NCBI GenBank assembly: GCA_943788755.1
Contig: CALSRM010000001.1
Location: forward strand, 62,001 to 126,000
DNA length: 64,000 nt
Direction: 5' to 3'
Source: an uncultured Flavobacteriales bacterium
GTDB taxonomy: Bacteria > Bacteroidota > Bacteroidia > Flavobacteriales_D > Parvicellaceae
Part shown: positions 22,116 to 44,931 of the stretch, in pieces
Layout: each line of letters opens with the position of its first letter
Numbering within the stretch: position 1 is the first letter of the stretch
Notes under the pieces: generated by a model
Told to the model about the DNA's origin: nothing
Database searches by the model: none
The model's input: the letters and a program-made list of their open reading frames with translations, nothing else
Position numbers and translations under genes: made by a program

Positions 22116-23762
22116 GTTGATGCAGGAGCAGATCAAACCGTATGTGAAGGAGAACCAGTAACCTTATCAGGTACAGGAGCAAGTTCATATACATGGGATA
22201 ATGGAGTAAGTGATGGTGTAGTATTTAACGCAACCAATACAACAACCTATAATGTAATAGGAACTGATGCCAATGGATGTGAAAACACGGATGAAGTAGT
22301 TGTAAATATAAATTCACTTCCAACTGTAGGTGCAGGAGCAGACCAAACCGTATGTGAAGGAGTTTCAGTAACGTTATCAGGATCTGGAGCAGTAGGCAGT
22401 CCACCTTATAGTTATCTTTGGGGTAATGGCGTGACGGACGGAGTTGCATTTAATGCAACCACTACCACAACTTATATTGTAACGGTTGCTGATGCTAATG
22501 GATGTGAGAATACAGATGAAGTGGATGTAGTTGTTAATCCAAATCCGATTCCCACGATTAATGGAGTCTCTGAATATTGCACTGGTACTTCAGCATTGCT
22601 TTCTACAGTTAATCCATATGATACTTATTTATGGTCTACTGGCGATGTTACAGCAACTTCAGCTGTCACTGCTTCGGATAATCCAATTTCTGTAACGGTA
22701 ACAAATACATTTGGTTGTTCATCAACGTCTGCGGTATTTTCTGTGTCAGAAAATACTGTAATAACATATAACTCGACAGAAACAATTTGTCAAGGCGATG
22801 CTATAATTATTCATGGAAACTCTCAATCTGATGCAAGTGTTTATTCTGAGACCTTTTCTTTGGGTACAGGTTGTGATAGTATTTCTAATGTTACTCTGGT
22901 TGTAAATGCTTTACCAACAGTTGTTGCAGGAGCTAATCAAGCAATTTGCGAGGGTGAAATAGTTACCTTGAGTGGTTCAGGAGCGACCACTTATGTTTGG
23001 AATAATGGAGTAGTAGAAAACACTCCATTTACCCCAACGTTAGGAACCGTTACGTATACATTAACCGGAACAGACGCGAATGGTTGTGTTAACACAGATG
23101 TTGTTGATCTTACTGTGAACGCTTTACCAATAGTTGATGCAGGAATAGACCAAGCCGTATGTGAAGGAGACCCAGTAACCTTATCAGGTGCAGGAGCAAG
23201 TTCATATACATGGGATAATGGAGTAAGTGATGGTGTAGCATTTAACGCAACCACTACAACAACTTATAATGTAATAGGAACTGATGCTAATGGATGTGAG
23301 AATACAGATGAAGTAATTGTAAGTGTAAATTCACTTCCAACAGTTAGTGCAGGTGCAGACCAAACCGTATGTGAAGGAGACCCAGTAACCTTATCAGGTG
23401 CAGGAGCAAGTTCATATACATGGGATAATGGAGTAAGTGATGGTGTAGCATTTAACGCAACCACTACAACAACTTATAATGTAATAGGAACTGATGCCAA
23501 TGGATGTGAAAATACAGATGAAGTAATTGTAAGTGTAAATTCACTTCCAACAGTTAGTGCAGGTGCAGATCAAACGATTTGTTCTGGAGATCCAATAACT
23601 TTATCAGGTACAGGAGCAAGTTCATATGCATGGGATAATGGAGTTACTGATGGTGTAGCATTTACACCGCTTTCAACAACTACATATACAGTTACTGGAA
23701 CCGATGTTAACGGATGTTCCAATACAGATGCCTTATCAATTGTAGTTGATGAATGCTCAGGG
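22116..23762 (+). repeat. 210-bp tandem repeats encoding Ig-like domains
   Basis: Periodicity of 210 bp (70 codons) is visible at 22116, 22326, 23133, 23343 and 23553. The units 23133-23342 and 23343-23552 are almost identical in DNA. Between 22545 and 22920 the units diverge in sequence and length. Confidence 0.85.
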
Positions 23763-37256: not shown

Positions 37257-37284
37257 TTGTTGATAGTCATATTTTTTACATTTG
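37257..37284 (+). promoter_or_regulatory. Promoter of the 37290 gene
   Basis: TTG 37257-37259, 17-bp spacer, TACATTTG 37277-37284. The box ends 5 bp before ATG 37290, so transcription would start at or beside the start codon (leaderless). This also argues against the in-frame Met at 37257. Confidence 0.5.
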
Positions 37285-37289
37285 TAAAA

Positions 37290-37901
37290 ATGAAATTAAT
37301 CGGAGATAGAGTGTCGTATAAAGTTCATGAAGATTACAGTACAATTGTAATTTCAACGAATATTGATAAATGGAAGGAGACCATATTATTAACGTGGCTG
37401 CTTGGATGGACAATCTGTGGAAGCGTTTTCTTTTATTTTCTTTTCGCTGGAGATTTAACCAGAGAAGAAAAGCTAATGCTGCTGGTTATGTGTGTTTTTT
37501 GGTTGTTTTTTGAAATTAGAATAGGTAAAACTTATCTATGGCGAAAATCCGGAATGGAATTTATTAGAATCGATAAGGATTTAATGACGATTAAAAAGTC
37601 TATTAAAGGTTTTGGGAAAGCTATACCTTATCAGTTAGGTAGGATTAAGAATGTACAAGGGCTTGAGGTTAATCCTAAGGGGTTTAGTAAATCAATGAAT
37701 GACTCATTTTGGGTAATAGGCCAAGGAACAGTACGTTTTTTTTATAACGAAAAGGAAGTTCGATTTGGAGCTCAATTAGGCACTAAAGATGCAGAGAAGT
37801 TAGCGAGAGCTGTCAAAAAGTTTGTAAGAGAATATGCTCAAAAAAGCAGTGATCATTTAGCTGCTGTCCAGAAGAAAGTCACTGAACATAGTGCCGATTA
37901 A
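37290..37901 (+). CDS. Two-helix membrane protein of unknown function
   Basis: 204 residues from ATG 37290; a Met at 37257 is in frame but overlaps the promoter. Two membrane helices (about 37-57 and 64-82) are flanked by hydrophilic parts. The C-terminal cytoplasmic domain (DLMTIKKSIKGFGKAIPYQ, VRFFYNEKEVRFGAQL, then a basic helix) looks like a small PH-like beta domain of the kind seen in bacterial bPH/YdbT-type proteins; this is a fold guess. Ends 1 bp from the convergent CoA-transferase gene. Confidence 0.72.
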   Translation: MKLIGDRVSYKVHEDYSTIVISTNIDKWKETILLTWLLGWTICGSVFFYFLFAGDLTREEKLMLLVMCVFWLFFEIRIGKTYLWRKSGMEFIRIDKDLMTIKKSIKGFGKAIPYQLGRIKNVQGLEVNPKGFSKSMNDSFWVIGQGTVRFFYNEKEVRFGAQLGTKDAEKLARAVKKFVREYAQKSSDHLAAVQKKVTEHSAD

Positions 37902-39232: not shown

Positions 39233-42200
39233 ATGTCGCAGGGAAAGAAATTTGGAGCATTTGGGGGCGTATTTACACCATCGATACTAACAATATTGGG
39301 TGTGATTATGTACATGCGTTTGGGTATGGTTGTAGGTAATGCAGGAACATTATTTACTACAATTGCCATAATACTTCTTGCTCATATTGTTTCTGTTACT
39401 ACAGGATTAAGTGTTTCTTCAGTTGCTACGGATAAAAAGATAAAGGCTGGAGGTATATATTATATGCTTTCCCGAAGCCTCGGTTTGCCTATTGGAGGAG
39501 CAATTGGGATTACCCTATTTGTTGCAACTGCATTAAGTATAGCTTTATATTTAATTGGATTTGGCGAAAGTGCCATGGTTGTACTTTCTGATTATCTAAG
39601 TATTGAAGAGATTACAACCAATCACCTGAGGATTATAGGGTCAATTGCACTATTAGTTATTGTGACAATTGCTTATATCTCTACAAGTATTGCGATTAAA
39701 TCGCAGTATTTTATTCTTTTTGCAATTATTCTTTCCTTGATCTCAATTTTCCTTGGAACGAGTGAAGGTAAAGGATTTGATACTTCTCATGTGGAAGGAT
39801 CAACTGTAGGATTCTCAACTTTGTTTGGTATTTTTTTTCCTGCTGTAACTGGGTTTACCGCCGGTGTTGCAATGTCTGGTGATTTGAAAGATCCTAAAAA
39901 AGCAATTCCTTGGGGAACGATGTCAGCGGTAGTCGTAGGTTTGTTAGTCTATATTGTACTATCTGTATTTATTCATTATTCCATACCACAGGCAGAATTA
40001 ATCAATAACAATAATGCTTTGGTTCAATTTGGATTAGTTCCGGGATTGGTAATCGTTGGAATATGGGGGGCAACATTATCATCTGCTTTGGGGGGTATAT
40101 TGGGAGCGCCACGTATTCTTCAAGCAATGTCAATCGATAAAATTACACCAAATATCTTTGGAAGAGGAGTTGGGAATGATAATGAGCCTCGAAATGCTTT
40201 GATTCTGACTTTCATTATTGCAGAGGCTGGAATCTTAATTGGGGAATTAAATGTTATTGCAGAAATAGTGGCCATGTTTTATATGGCTGCCTATATGTTT
40301 ATTAATCTTTCTTGTTTTTTGGAACAATGGGCAAGTCCGGATTTCAGACCTAAATTCAAAATATATTTATTCGTTCCGCTGATTGGAACCATTGCTACTT
40401 TTTTATTAATGGTGCAATTAAATCTAGCTGCTGCCCTAATATCTGTGGCTATAATGGCTTTGGTTTTTATATGGTTGACAAGAAGGCATTTAGAATTAGG
40501 TTCAGGAGATGTTTGGCAAAGCGTATGGTCTTCAGTTGTTAAAATTGGATTGAAAAATTTAGGGAAGAAATCAACGCACAAAAGAAATTGGGAGCCGAAT
40601 ATATTGTTGTTTAGTGGTGGAACAGCTGCTCGGCCCCATTTACTAGGTTTTAGTAAATCTATAGCTGGGAGAAAAGGAATGATATCAAATTTTGATTTGA
40701 TTGAAACACCAACTGCAGAGGTACTGTTTCCTAAACATGCTCAAGCTGTCAATGATGATGGTTATGACGATTCTATTTTTCATAGAAAACAGGAATGTCA
40801 AAATATCTTTCAAGGTATTGAGGCCATTGCAAGCACTTATGGCTTTTCTGGAGTTGAGCCTAATACAGTAATGATGGGTTGGGCGCGAAACACCAATCAC
40901 CCTATTGGATTTTCTCAAATGACGAAAAAACTGGGGGTACTTGACTATAACGTTTTGTATCTTGATTACGACAAAGAAAAAGGATTTGGGCAATATAAGA
41001 GAATTGACATTTGGTGGAAGGAAATAAATCAAGAGAGTGATTTGGCTTTACAATTAGTAAGAATGTTGTTGGCTTCGCCTGATTGGAGCAATACGCATGT
41101 ACGGATTCTCTATCTAAATAATGACAATGGTCAAAAATTAATTGTTGAGGATGCTGTTAGAAAAAGACTAGAAGCTTTGCGCGTTGATGCCGAAGTAGAA
41201 ATTGTTAATAATGAATTAGAGAAAAAAGGATTTTACGAAGTAGTTAAAATAAATTCTTTTGAAGCTGACTTAATATTGTTGAATATTCCTGAAATAGAAG
41301 AAGGAAAGGAAAGCACATTTATAGAAAATACAAATGCTTTTTTAGATGTAATGGGCACCACATTATTGCTAAAAGCGTCTTCTCATTTTTACGATGAGGA
41401 AGGGTTTGATCCTTTACTTGAAATGAAATATCAAGGAGAAGAATTTGCCTCTTTATTTATCGAAAAAACCGATGCGGTTGTTCTTGGCCTACCTGGCTAT
41501 GAATTACTTGATAAAAAAATAAAGATAATTGATGATGAAATTCATGCCTTAAATATTGCTTTTGTCAATCGTGTTTATGATACGTGGTTTGATGTATGGA
41601 ATAGCTATATAGGTTTGTTTAAAGAAAGGTTGCAAGCAGAGGATAGTCAATCTATTGAAAAAGCTTTAGAAATTGAACAGAAGCTACTAGAGGACATTGT
41701 TGATAATCGTATAGGAAAAATAACTACAGCAATATCACTTGGAATAGAGTCGCATGTAGAAGCAGTAAGCAAACTCGTGGAATTATCTCCAACTACCATA
41801 GAGAGAATATATACGCAGGAAGAATTGAAACCGAACCCGAAAGATTCTCCGAAATTAGTGCGATTGAAAAAGAAATATTTGCGGAAAAAGAAGCAAAATA
41901 TTCGTTTTGCTAAGATTGTACAACATCATTTTGAGAATTCCTATCTATATCAGTTTAAGACGAAATTAAACGTGCTGGGCCTTTCCAGTTTTATTGTAAA
42001 TAAAACACTAAAAGATTGGTCCATTGACAATGAAAGGGCTGATGGGTTAAATGATCTAAAAGATTTACTTTCAATCCAGTTTAAAAAAGAAAAAGGCATC
42101 TTTTTACAAGAACTAAATTCGCTGGGAAGAATATTTTGTAACTCAATCACCGTTGATGTAGATAAATTAGATGTCAATAATTTGTCATCAAACCGGGAGG

Positions 42201-44212
42201 AAGAAAGAACAGGAAAAGTAATTAAAAATGCCTTTCTGTCAATTGCTTCATATCCGGAACACTGGAATTCAAATCAAAAACATTTCACAAATCAGCTTCT
42301 TGTCAATGTTCAATTAACACAGGTGAGAAAAACATTAATTCCATTTGTTAATCAATCCACAAAAAAGATAGACAAAGGATTAATTCATTCATCGTTGAAT
42401 TTGTTTAATCGTATCGAAGAACAAATAGATGAGATAAGCTTGGAAAAACTGGGTGTGTTTGAAGCGAAGTTATTATCTGTGTCCAACACAATAAATGTTG
42501 ATAATTTGATTAAATCAATAACACAAAAAGTAGATAAAAGTGTTAACAAATATTGTGATAGCTCCGAGGTACTATCAGCGAAGCAGATAAATGAGTTTGA
42601 AAATGATCAATATGATTTAACGCCTTCGAAGATAAATGTGCGAAAAGTTGTGGGGCACTTAATAGAAAACGAGTTGGTTAGTAAAATAAAGGAGGTGTTT
42701 CAGTTGTCGCATAATGCAGTAAATTCTGAAGTTGTGAAAGTTGAAAATGCGCTAAGGTTATTGAAGTTTACATTACAAAACAAAGAAAATGAAAGTAGCA
42801 ATTCGAATGAAATTGCCGAAAAAGTGAAAGAGAGTATTGCAGAAGCAAAGGAACATTTAGCTACAGTTCAAATAAGATTGAACGGGGACATTCAAACAGT
42901 TTTAGATTTATTAAAAAAGATGTTAAAGGATGAAATAATTATTTCTAGAGCGGATACTTTGGATGGTATAATTCTGAGGGAGAAAACCCGAAAGGGAGCT
43001 GCAAAATATTTAAATAACATCAAAAGTCGATTTGAAAAGATTAACAATGGGGTAGACAGACTATTGATTAAGGCACGTGATTTATTTGCTATAACAGGTT
43101 ATCAACATAGAACGAAGTCTGTTCAGAATCCGCACAATAGATTAGCGGATTTTATGGATTCGGTTTCTTTGGCCCCTGCTATTGAAAAACAATTACCTTT
43201 TTATTACAAACAACTGTTTTTAGGGAAGCATATTGCTCCGGATAAACCATTACAGAATCGTTTATCTGAACTGGAAATGGCGCGAAAATCAATTGAAAGA
43301 TTTAAGGCTGGCAGAAATGGCGCAATTTTATTTACAGGAGACCCATTTTCAGGTAAATCTTATTTAATGCATAATGTAGTTAATGTATATTGTGAGAAAA
43401 AAGTATACAACATTGTGGCTCCAATGCACACAATTAACTTCTCGGAAAAATTATTTGATAATTCATTGAACATTGCAACGGGAATAGAAGGAAGTTACAT
43501 TCAAATAATGAATGAATTGCCAGAGGGTAGTGTTTTGGTATTTGAAGATCTTGAATTATGGTGGACACGTTCAACAAATGGAGCTGATTTATTGAATAGA
43601 ATAATGTCGGTTGTTAAATCTTATGGGCATAAACATTTATTTTTATTTGATTGCAATATCTATTTCTATCAACATATTCGCCAATATATTGATATTGATT
43701 CTAAGCTATTGACAACGATTACAGTTTCGCCGCTTACGACAAATGAAATAAATAGAGCTGTAATGGACAGGCACAGTAGTGGAGGGGTATCTTTCTTGTG
43801 GAAAGGAAAACTTGAAAAAGAGTTAAAGCAGAGAGAACAAAATCAATTATTTAAAAAGCTGACTTCAAATTCAGAAGGAAACGTGGGACTTTCTTTTTAT
43901 ATGTGGTTAGCAAATATAAGCTCTATAGATGGCAGCTTACTGGATTTAAAGAAAATGGAATCATTGGAATTACCCAATGTTCTGTTATCTGATTGGAATC
44001 TTATGTTATTGCAAATTCTGTTACATAAGCAAATTGATTTTAATCAATTATGCACAGTCTATCATACCGAAAGTTCTGAAAGTATTAATACGACGTTGCA
44101 AAGTCTTGTAAGGGCTGGAATTGTTTTGAACTCAAACAATTTATTTGAAATCTCTCCATATGCTTTGCCATATTTAATTAAGTATTTACGTAAAATCCAA
44201 TTGATAAACTAA
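39233..44212 (+). CDS. SLC12-type transporter fused to a helical region, P-loop ATPase and winged helix
   Basis: Giant 1659-residue membrane protein. Residues about 8-425 are an APC-superfamily core like cation-chloride cotransporters (FGAFGGVFTPSILTILGVIMYMRLG, 12 helices, GAPRILQAMS). About 440-750 match the SLC12 cytoplasmic tail (RPHLLGFSKSIAGRKG, VMMGWARNT). About 760-1340 is charged, mostly helical and coiled-coil-like. A nucleotide-binding domain follows, with Walker A GDPFSGKS at 1369-1376 and Walker B VLVFEDLE (Glu1438-Asp1439). The last ~90 residues (LMLLQILLHKQIDFNQLC...LQSLVRAGIV) look like a winged helix. SLC12 proteins normally stop near residue 750-1000. Preceded by a 265-bp gap with a small dyad at 39126-39141; the stop overlaps the next gene by 1 nt. 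Confidence 0.9.
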   Translation: MSQGKKFGAFGGVFTPSILTILGVIMYMRLGMVVGNAGTLFTTIAIILLAHIVSVTTGLSVSSVATDKKIKAGGIYYMLSRSLGLPIGGAIGITLFVATALSIALYLIGFGESAMVVLSDYLSIEEITTNHLRIIGSIALLVIVTIAYISTSIAIKSQYFILFAIILSLISIFLGTSEGKGFDTSHVEGSTVGFSTLFGIFFPAVTGFTAGVAMSGDLKDPKKAIPWGTMSAVVVGLLVYIVLSVFIHYSIPQAELINNNNALVQFGLVPGLVIVGIWGATLSSALGGILGAPRILQAMSIDKITPNIFGRGVGNDNEPRNALILTFIIAEAGILIGELNVIAEIVAMFYMAAYMFINLSCFLEQWASPDFRPKFKIYLFVPLIGTIATFLLMVQLNLAAALISVAIMALVFIWLTRRHLELGSGDVWQSVWSSVVKIGLKNLGKKSTHKRNWEPNILLFSGGTAARPHLLGFSKSIAGRKGMISNFDLIETPTAEVLFPKHAQAVNDDGYDDSIFHRKQECQNIFQGIEAIASTYGFSGVEPNTVMMGWARNTNHPIGFSQMTKKLGVLDYNVLYLDYDKEKGFGQYKRIDIWWKEINQESDLALQLVRMLLASPDWSNTHVRILYLNNDNGQKLIVEDAVRKRLEALRVDAEVEIVNNELEKKGFYEVVKINSFEADLILLNIPEIEEGKESTFIENTNAFLDVMGTTLLLKASSHFYDEEGFDPLLEMKYQGEEFASLFIEKTDAVVLGLPGYELLDKKIKIIDDEIHALNIAFVNRVYDTWFDVWNSYIGLFKERLQAEDSQSIEKALEIEQKLLEDIVDNRIGKITTAISLGIESHVEAVSKLVELSPTTIERIYTQEELKPNPKDSPKLVRLKKKYLRKKKQNIRFAKIVQHHFENSYLYQFKTKLNVLGLSSFIVNKTLKDWSIDNERADGLNDLKDLLSIQFKKEKGIFLQELNSLGRIFCNSITVDVDKLDVNNLSSNREEERTGKVIKNAFLSIASYPEHWNSNQKHFTNQLLVNVQLTQVRKTLIPFVNQSTKKIDKGLIHSSLNLFNRIEEQIDEISLEKLGVFEAKLLSVSNTINVDNLIKSITQKVDKSVNKYCDSSEVLSAKQINEFENDQYDLTPSKINVRKVVGHLIENELVSKIKEVFQLSHNAVNSEVVKVENALRLLKFTLQNKENESSNSNEIAEKVKESIAEAKEHLATVQIRLNGDIQTVLDLLKKMLKDEIIISRADTLDGIILREKTRKGAAKYLNNIKSRFEKINNGVDRLLIKARDLFAITGYQHRTKSVQNPHNRLADFMDSVSLAPAIEKQLPFYYKQLFLGKHIAPDKPLQNRLSELEMARKSIERFKAGRNGAILFTGDPFSGKSYLMHNVVNVYCEKKVYNIVAPMHTINFSEKLFDNSLNIATGIEGSYIQIMNELPEGSVLVFEDLELWWTRSTNGADLLNRIMSVVKSYGHKHLFLFDCNIYFYQHIRQYIDIDSKLLTTITVSPLTTNEINRAVMDRHSSGGVSFLWKGKLEKELKQREQNQLFKKLTSNSEGNVGLSFYMWLANISSIDGSLLDLKKMESLELPNVLLSDWNLMLLQILLHKQIDFNQLCTVYHTESSESINTTLQSLVRAGIVLNSNNLFEISPYALPYLIKYLRKIQLIN

Positions 44213-44931
44213 TGTTGTTTGAATTTCAAGACATAACATTTGGAATGTTTTTCCGCTTAATTAGCGCCGCGGTTTCAATTTTTATATTCTTTTTCATTGC
44301 ACAAAAATACCTTGTTCCATGGATTAGAAATGACCGGTTACAAAAGCATTTTCGCTTCTATTTACCACTCGTGAGAAATATTGTGTGGATTCTATTTTGT
44401 ATAGATTTAGTCTATGAAATTTCATTAATCAACCTGTTTGTCTCATTAAGTCTGTTTGGCCTTATAATAGCCTTGTTATGGCAGTTAGTAAGGGATTTTG
44501 TTCAGGGAATTATATTTGGATTTCAAAAAGGAGATATAGTTGGTCAGCGATTAAAAATAAAAGATTATTCCGGTGTTGTTTCGGCACAAACCGCTACTAA
44601 GCTGCATTTGGAAATAGAAAATGGAGAAATCATTCAATTTCCTTATAACCAGGTAACTTCCCAATTAATGTCTAAACCAACTGTAGCTGGAAAGCTTAAA
44701 AGTTGTAGTTTTTCTGTGATTCTATCTGGAAAGGTAAATATTGATGCCGCAAAAGATAAATTAACAAGTCATTTACTGAGTATGCCTTGGGTTATTTCTA
44801 CCATGAAAATTAAGGTTGAGGTGATTGAAGAGCGCGATGCAAATATTGAGCTCAAAGTTGTTGTTTACACTTCTAGTGAAAAGTACATTTCTAGAATCAA
44901 ACAAGAAATTGCAGAGTTGTTATTTGATTAA
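44212..44931 (+). CDS. MscS-like mechanosensitive channel, short form
   Basis: 239-residue membrane protein, translationally coupled (TAATG) to the SLC12-ATPase gene. Helices at about 11-33, 46-68 and 75-98; the last begins a pore-like segment (LIIALLWQLVRDFVQGIIFGFQKGDIVGQRLKI), matching the pore helix and the beta-domain entrance of MscS. The usual beta domain (VVSAQTATKLHLEIENGEIIQFPYNQV) and an alpha/beta C-terminal domain follow. Probably releases solutes or ions on membrane tension; coupling to an ion transporter suggests shared osmotic duty. Confidence 0.85.
   Translation: MLFEFQDITFGMFFRLISAAVSIFIFFFIAQKYLVPWIRNDRLQKHFRFYLPLVRNIVWILFCIDLVYEISLINLFVSLSLFGLIIALLWQLVRDFVQGIIFGFQKGDIVGQRLKIKDYSGVVSAQTATKLHLEIENGEIIQFPYNQVTSQLMSKPTVAGKLKSCSFSVILSGKVNIDAAKDKLTSHLLSMPWVISTMKIKVEVIEERDANIELKVVVYTSSEKYISRIKQEIAELLFD

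Follow-up and report, generated by a model that had tools for sequence, protein, structure and literature searches.

A protein in which long helical bundles are followed by an AAA+ domain and a winged helix, together with an adjoining MscS gene, was found to be the conserved unit in Bacteroidota, and the SLC12 transporter fused to this protein in the DNA studied here is one of several partners. The window, that is, the whole stretch analysed, comprises 64,000 nucleotides from an uncultured Flavobacteriales bacterium of the family Parvicellaceae. It contains the following features of this system.

39233..44212, + strand: fusion gene encoding SLC12, helical region, AAA+ domain and winged helix (1659 aa, ATG start)
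39233..40522, + strand: predicted SLC12/NKCC-like membrane domain, residues 1-430 (NKCC1 alignment)
40523..41482, + strand: SLC12-type cytoplasmic C-terminal domain, residues 431-750 (PDB KCC chains align to about residue 705)
41483..43186, + strand: long helical region, a linker or stalk, residues 751-1318 (AlphaFold2, profile comparison)
43187..43987, + strand: AAA+ domain, Orc/Cdc6 or STAND-like, residues 1319-1585 (AlphaFold2 and PDB structure comparison)
43337..43360, + strand: Walker A, GDPFSGKS, residues 1369-1376 (sequence)
43532..43549, + strand: Walker B, VLVFED, residues 1434-1439, with a conserved LELWW after it (sequence)
43988..44209, + strand: C-terminal winged-helix domain, residues 1586-1659 (secondary structure of the model; the Orc2 match spans model residues 570-909)
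44212..44931, + strand: predicted short divergent MscS-family channel gene, 239 aa, translationally coupled partner (Pfam)

A preliminary description of this DNA had proposed a 1659-residue fusion of an SLC12 transporter, a helical region, an NTPase and a winged-helix end, and all of these parts were found by ORF analysis, Pfam/NCBIfam searches and AlphaFold2. GDPFSGKS sits exactly where Walker A had been placed, and VLVFED agrees with the Walker B claimed near residue 1438. The MscS-like gene said to follow with a one-base overlap was also recovered: its ORF starts at the last base of the fusion-gene stop codon (TAATG).

The fusion or pieces of it were present in 32 of the 37 genomes of the window's family, and thus it was not the assembly artefact that its absence from all relatives would have indicated. 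The probability that it arose by misassembly or by read-through of two genes is negligible. Although the fusion is broken in frame in genome G002, probably by a sequencing error, 33 uninterrupted full-length frames of 1600-1760 codons (the window's and 32 other loci, from many assemblies) were aligned, which refutes this explanation. Between the window and a genome of the same genus (95% identical), dN/dS was 0.05, 0.04, 0.12 and 0.08 in four parts of the fusion and 0.08 in the MscS gene; every domain is under purifying selection. Across much of the family the fusion is often still flanked by the CoA-transferase, aroC and SDF transporter genes, which points to its vertical inheritance there. 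The frame-broken copy in G002 (L063:3551-9252) runs from its AAA+ end in frame into MscS, probably owing to assembly indels.

The transporter part was compared with characterized cotransporters. Residues 1-750 matched NCBIfam TIGR00930 with an E value of 5e-115, but the match was partial and below the curated cut-off (385.6 versus 953.4). Pfam AA_permease was matched in the fusion protein at E 4.5e-42, and the PDB matches of the SLC12 part were NKCC1, NCC and KCC structures (E about 1e-71). The residues that define the K+, Na+ and Cl- sites of NKCC1 have been described (PMC7035313, PMC7889885). In the alignment, Tyr383, Pro496 and Thr499 of the K+ site correspond to Y106, P203 and T206 of the window protein, Ser613 and Ser614 of the Na+ site to S283 and S284, and Tyr686 of the second chloride site to Y354; all six window residues were invariant or nearly so (at least 97%) across the 33 fusions. 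Asn298 in TM1 of NKCC1, which contributes through its backbone carbonyl (PMC7035313), aligns with Thr20. Because the Na+ and K+ sites are both present, the carrier looks NKCC-like, as predicted from sequence. It could not be the sole route of K+ uptake, since TrkH was found in nearly all relatives. A prokaryotic cation-chloride cotransporter, MaCCC of Methanosarcina acetivorans, is already known (Warmuth et al. 2009, as cited in PMC4301019).

The SLC12 homology stops at about residues 705-750, and an ordinary SLC12 regulatory domain was therefore ruled out for the C-terminal half. Neither Pfam nor NCBIfam gave any assignment above cut-off for this half of the window protein, and its profile had no significant match among PDB sequences. 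Residues 751-1659 were modelled with AlphaFold2 from an alignment of the window protein and nine relatives (ten sequences). The mean pLDDT of 80 and pTM of 0.50 make the single domains usable, but not their mutual arrangement. In the model, residues 1319-1659 fold into an AAA+ domain ending in a winged helix. Compared over its full length with solved structures, this part came closest to archaeal Orc2/Cdc6 and Walker-type ATPases, with 1w5t at Z 15.4 (317 residues, rmsd 5.4) and 2qen at Z 14.6. Comparison of the model with the PDB thus bore out the NTPase fold proposed for this half, which is distinct from the normal SLC12 C-terminal domain, and the Orc2 match extends over the winged-helix end seen in the model. 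The AAA+ core and winged helix are shared with Orc1/Cdc6 and with STAND and archaeal Walker ATPases as a full-length fold match, whereas the identity to 1w5t and 2qen is 12-16% and the module differs from them in being tied to transporters and channels and in often having lost the P-loop lysine. An nSTAND1 profile was matched below cut-off in one relative. In the G-D-x-R stretch, tentatively taken to hold the Sensor 2 arginine, the window protein reads EGNVG.

The region between the transporter and the AAA+ domain (residues 751-1318) was modelled as long helical bundles with a pLDDT of about 80. When it was folded alone and searched with Foldseek against solved structures, nothing better than E 0.1 was obtained, and a second look gave generic helical bundles only. 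In profile-profile comparisons, this region proved homologous among the forms fused to SLC12, standing alone, linked to CorA or fused to the exchanger, with probabilities of 94-99.9% against at most 1% for reversed controls; the homology was not detectable by this comparison in a form of about 800 aa.

The distribution of the module was studied within one phylum, Bacteroidota, by searching 396 class-level and 392 phylum-level genomes with profiles and inspecting gene neighbourhoods. The fusion also occurred in further orders and classes, and an MscS gene adjoined 42 of the 43 SLC12 fusions, so that the fusion and MscS neighbour sought across the phylum were both found. Among all 107 module loci, 97 had an adjacent MscS gene on the same strand, in 37 cases overlapping and in 51 within 0-20 bp (88 together). 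About five of the ten remaining loci lie at or near contig ends and one is a frame-broken assembly; the others are L190, L040, L116 and L117, of which the last three appear truly to be without MscS. Weak AAA matches of about 850 aa, at E 1e-5 to 1e-9, turned up in most of the genomes covered by the phylum scan and were not counted; judged by length, they look like ordinary AAA+ proteins of the ClpB type.

The exceptional loci had features of their own. In L040 (6111-9095), the stand-alone helical-AAA+ gene immediately follows two genes for sensor histidine kinases. L116, L117 and L120 encode a 1120-aa form (family f34) that is extended at its C-terminus, and an MscS gene appears to be missing next to it. 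In L190 (6172-6729), a 185-aa membrane protein, possibly an MscS remnant lacking the beta-domain, is encoded in the usual place of MscS, with the AAA+ gene on one side and a Na+/H+ exchanger gene on the other.

The frequency of pairing contrasts with the small number of MscS genes, only about four, in the window's genome; according to the genome scan, the other three are ordinary and larger. The window's MscS gene scored 19.1 bits against Pfam MS_channel when searched alone (cut-off 20.2) and 21.5 in the genome scan, and its relatives reached E 5e-22, another scoring 1.8e-21. The partner shares the channel and the beta-domain with MscS channels, but is predicted to be short and divergent, and its gene is coupled to that of the AAA+ protein.

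The transporter accompanying the pair differs from form to form. Four loci (L179, L180, L181 and L203) encode a 1500-aa protein in which an N-terminal Na+/H+ exchanger (PF00999, residues 46-425) is fused to the same kind of helical-AAA+ part. Genes for MscS, TrkH and TrkA come next in line. Pfam was run on L180, with TrkH also checked in L203, and the remainder were assigned by similarity to L180. In a quick tree of the AAA+ domain, this group formed a single supported branch apart from all SLC12 fusions. In L182 the N-terminus is polytopic but of another kind, and TrkH and TrkA lie upstream. The form of about 800 aa is followed by MscS and then a Na+/H+ exchanger in eight loci, including L190 with its possible shortened remnant, and a form of about 1010 aa is followed by MscS and then CorA in another eight. 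Many stand-alone forms (families f97, f103 and f109) have MscS, with no recognised ion transporter adjoining. The stand-alone proteins, with the exception of a single short form that has a borderline segment, had no predicted membrane helix, which fits a cytosolic controller.

Two further observations were made on these operons. Those of L179, L180, L181 and L203 also encode a second exchanger-like membrane protein of about 415-420 aa with no Pfam match. Seven AAA+/MscS/CorA operons (L124-L126, L130, L131, L133 and L134) lie behind genes for peptidase M3 and adenylosuccinate lyase (Pfam check on L126); a second MscS gene is often present in this group, and the Walker A lysine is lost throughout.

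Stand-alone SLC12 proteins of about 730-760 aa (L070-L073, L215 and L216, from Bacteroidota and cyanobacteria) end with the cytoplasmic domain, and neither an AAA+ gene of this kind nor an MscS gene lies alongside them. L215 and L216, from plasmid records, are annotated as amino acid permeases.

Because the MscS pairing recurs and the cation transporters are exchanged, ion or turgor homeostasis is the best-supported role of the module. There is an even chance, in our estimate, that the protein is an AAA+/STAND-like controller, switched by nucleotide or oligomeric state, which coordinates an ion transporter with the MscS channel in this homeostasis by a mechanism that we infer. In the window, the AAA+ switch would be carried on its helical stalk at the cytoplasmic side of the NKCC-like cotransporter. 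It would assemble or change shape with nucleotide state or with a condition of the cell, such as turgor, ionic strength or ATP level, and would drive the transporter to which it is fused and the MscS channel in opposite directions, so that salt uptake and release would not be open simultaneously. A physical contact between the AAA+ domain and MscS, the signal sensed and the direction of regulation are likewise what we infer.

The earlier suggestion that ion uptake and release may be regulated together gained support because the transporter partner is exchanged, the same module being fused to a Na+/H+ exchanger or placed beside CorA, TrkH/TrkA or such an exchanger; it requires correction in that the core is the AAA+/MscS pair. 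The switch-channel pair looks portable between transporters. It is conceivable, although somewhat doubtful, that the pair represents a new, phylum-wide class of ion-homeostasis controller, in which an AAA+/winged-helix switch is obligately associated with a dedicated MscS and has been joined repeatedly to unrelated transporters (SLC12, Na+/H+ exchanger, or beside CorA/TrkH), with pseudo-ATPase versions arising several times. Considering the stand-alone forms that have MscS and no recognised transporter, control of the transporter may not be the core task. The helical-AAA+ protein could mainly control or assemble MscS, the fusion serving only to anchor it at the membrane or to link expression while the transporter is unregulated. 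MscS is indeed the near-constant partner, and the transporters vary or are absent. However, two unrelated transporter fusions together with the CorA and TrkH/TrkA operons would be hard to put down to chance if transport had no importance, and the fusion was kept in 32 of the 37 family genomes. This explanation keeps some probability but is considered less likely than joint control.

The nature of the partners also bears on a possible function in defence. STAND-like sensors paired with membrane effectors exist in defence systems, and the module could by analogy be an anti-phage sensor with MscS as its killing pore. However, the partners are ion transporters, the only PADLOC match was one weak partial hit (mad8, E 0.003), and the gene has been inherited stably amid CoA-transferase, aroC and SDF genes in much of the family, which makes an anti-phage function very improbable.

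The ATP site was compared across the module. The Walker A lysine was present in 73 of 106 sequences and absent from the other 33, with at least six changes of state on the quick tree. An intact GK[ST] motif was found in 33 of the 43 SLC12 fusions, and both Walker A and Walker B are intact in the window protein. Since the lysine was lost repeatedly, an ATP-driven cycle cannot be general; judging by these motifs, ATP hydrolysis is probably optional across the family and not always needed. Several lineages have kept the AAA+ domain although its ATP site is no longer normal, which favours a structural or allosteric role, besides hydrolysis or replacing it. The NTPase had been proposed to gate the transporter or to act as a STAND/AAA-like sensor; as many relatives lack the lysine of the ATP site, the domain would act as a switch or scaffold and need not be an ATPase. 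These data also bear on whether the AAA+ domain might serve as a chaperone or remodeller, assembling or extracting the transporter and channel in the manner of MoxR/RavA-type AAA+ proteins. Such a function would suit the AAA+ fold and the long helical arm, but a catalytic chaperone would hardly be expected to be joined covalently to a single copy of the transporter, the repeated loss of the Walker A lysine speaks against obligatory hydrolysis, and the fold came nearest to Orc/Cdc6 in the PDB structure comparison. It is regarded as quite improbable.

The proposed switch-like controller has a parallel in known systems. Bacterial ion transporters are known to be regulated by RCK/KTN, CBS, USP or phosphotransfer modules. 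TrkA/KTN and RCK domains are cytosolic nucleotide-binding switches on K+ transporters and channels and would resemble the module in working principle, whereas the latter has an AAA+ domain and winged helix and RCK has a Rossmann fold; in the exchanger-fused operons, TrkA is a separate neighbouring gene. The SLC12 proteins NKCC1, KCC and MaCCC are like the fusion in membrane domain, ion-site residues and cytoplasmic domain, but none of the solved SLC12 structures has a helical stalk, AAA+ domain or winged helix. No description of an AAA+ domain fused to SLC12 or paired with MscS was found in the open-access literature, in keeping with the earlier remark that a system of this composition is not known to have been described. 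If the controller role is correct, an Orc/STAND-like AAA+ domain within a secondary carrier and locked genetically to MscS would be a new link between salt uptake and emergency release. It would also give a physiological role to bacterial NKCC relatives now annotated as amino acid permeases, and provide a tractable model for control of cation-chloride cotransporters from the cytoplasmic side.

Two other features of the window were observed. A 214-aa membrane protein, to which no function was assigned, is encoded at 37257-37901, and in many relatives ORFs similar to it in size and orientation accompany the CoA-transferase gene close to the fusion. A 210-bp tandem repeat (2.5 copies, 94%) at 23147-23664 possibly lies within a gene coding for a repeat protein.
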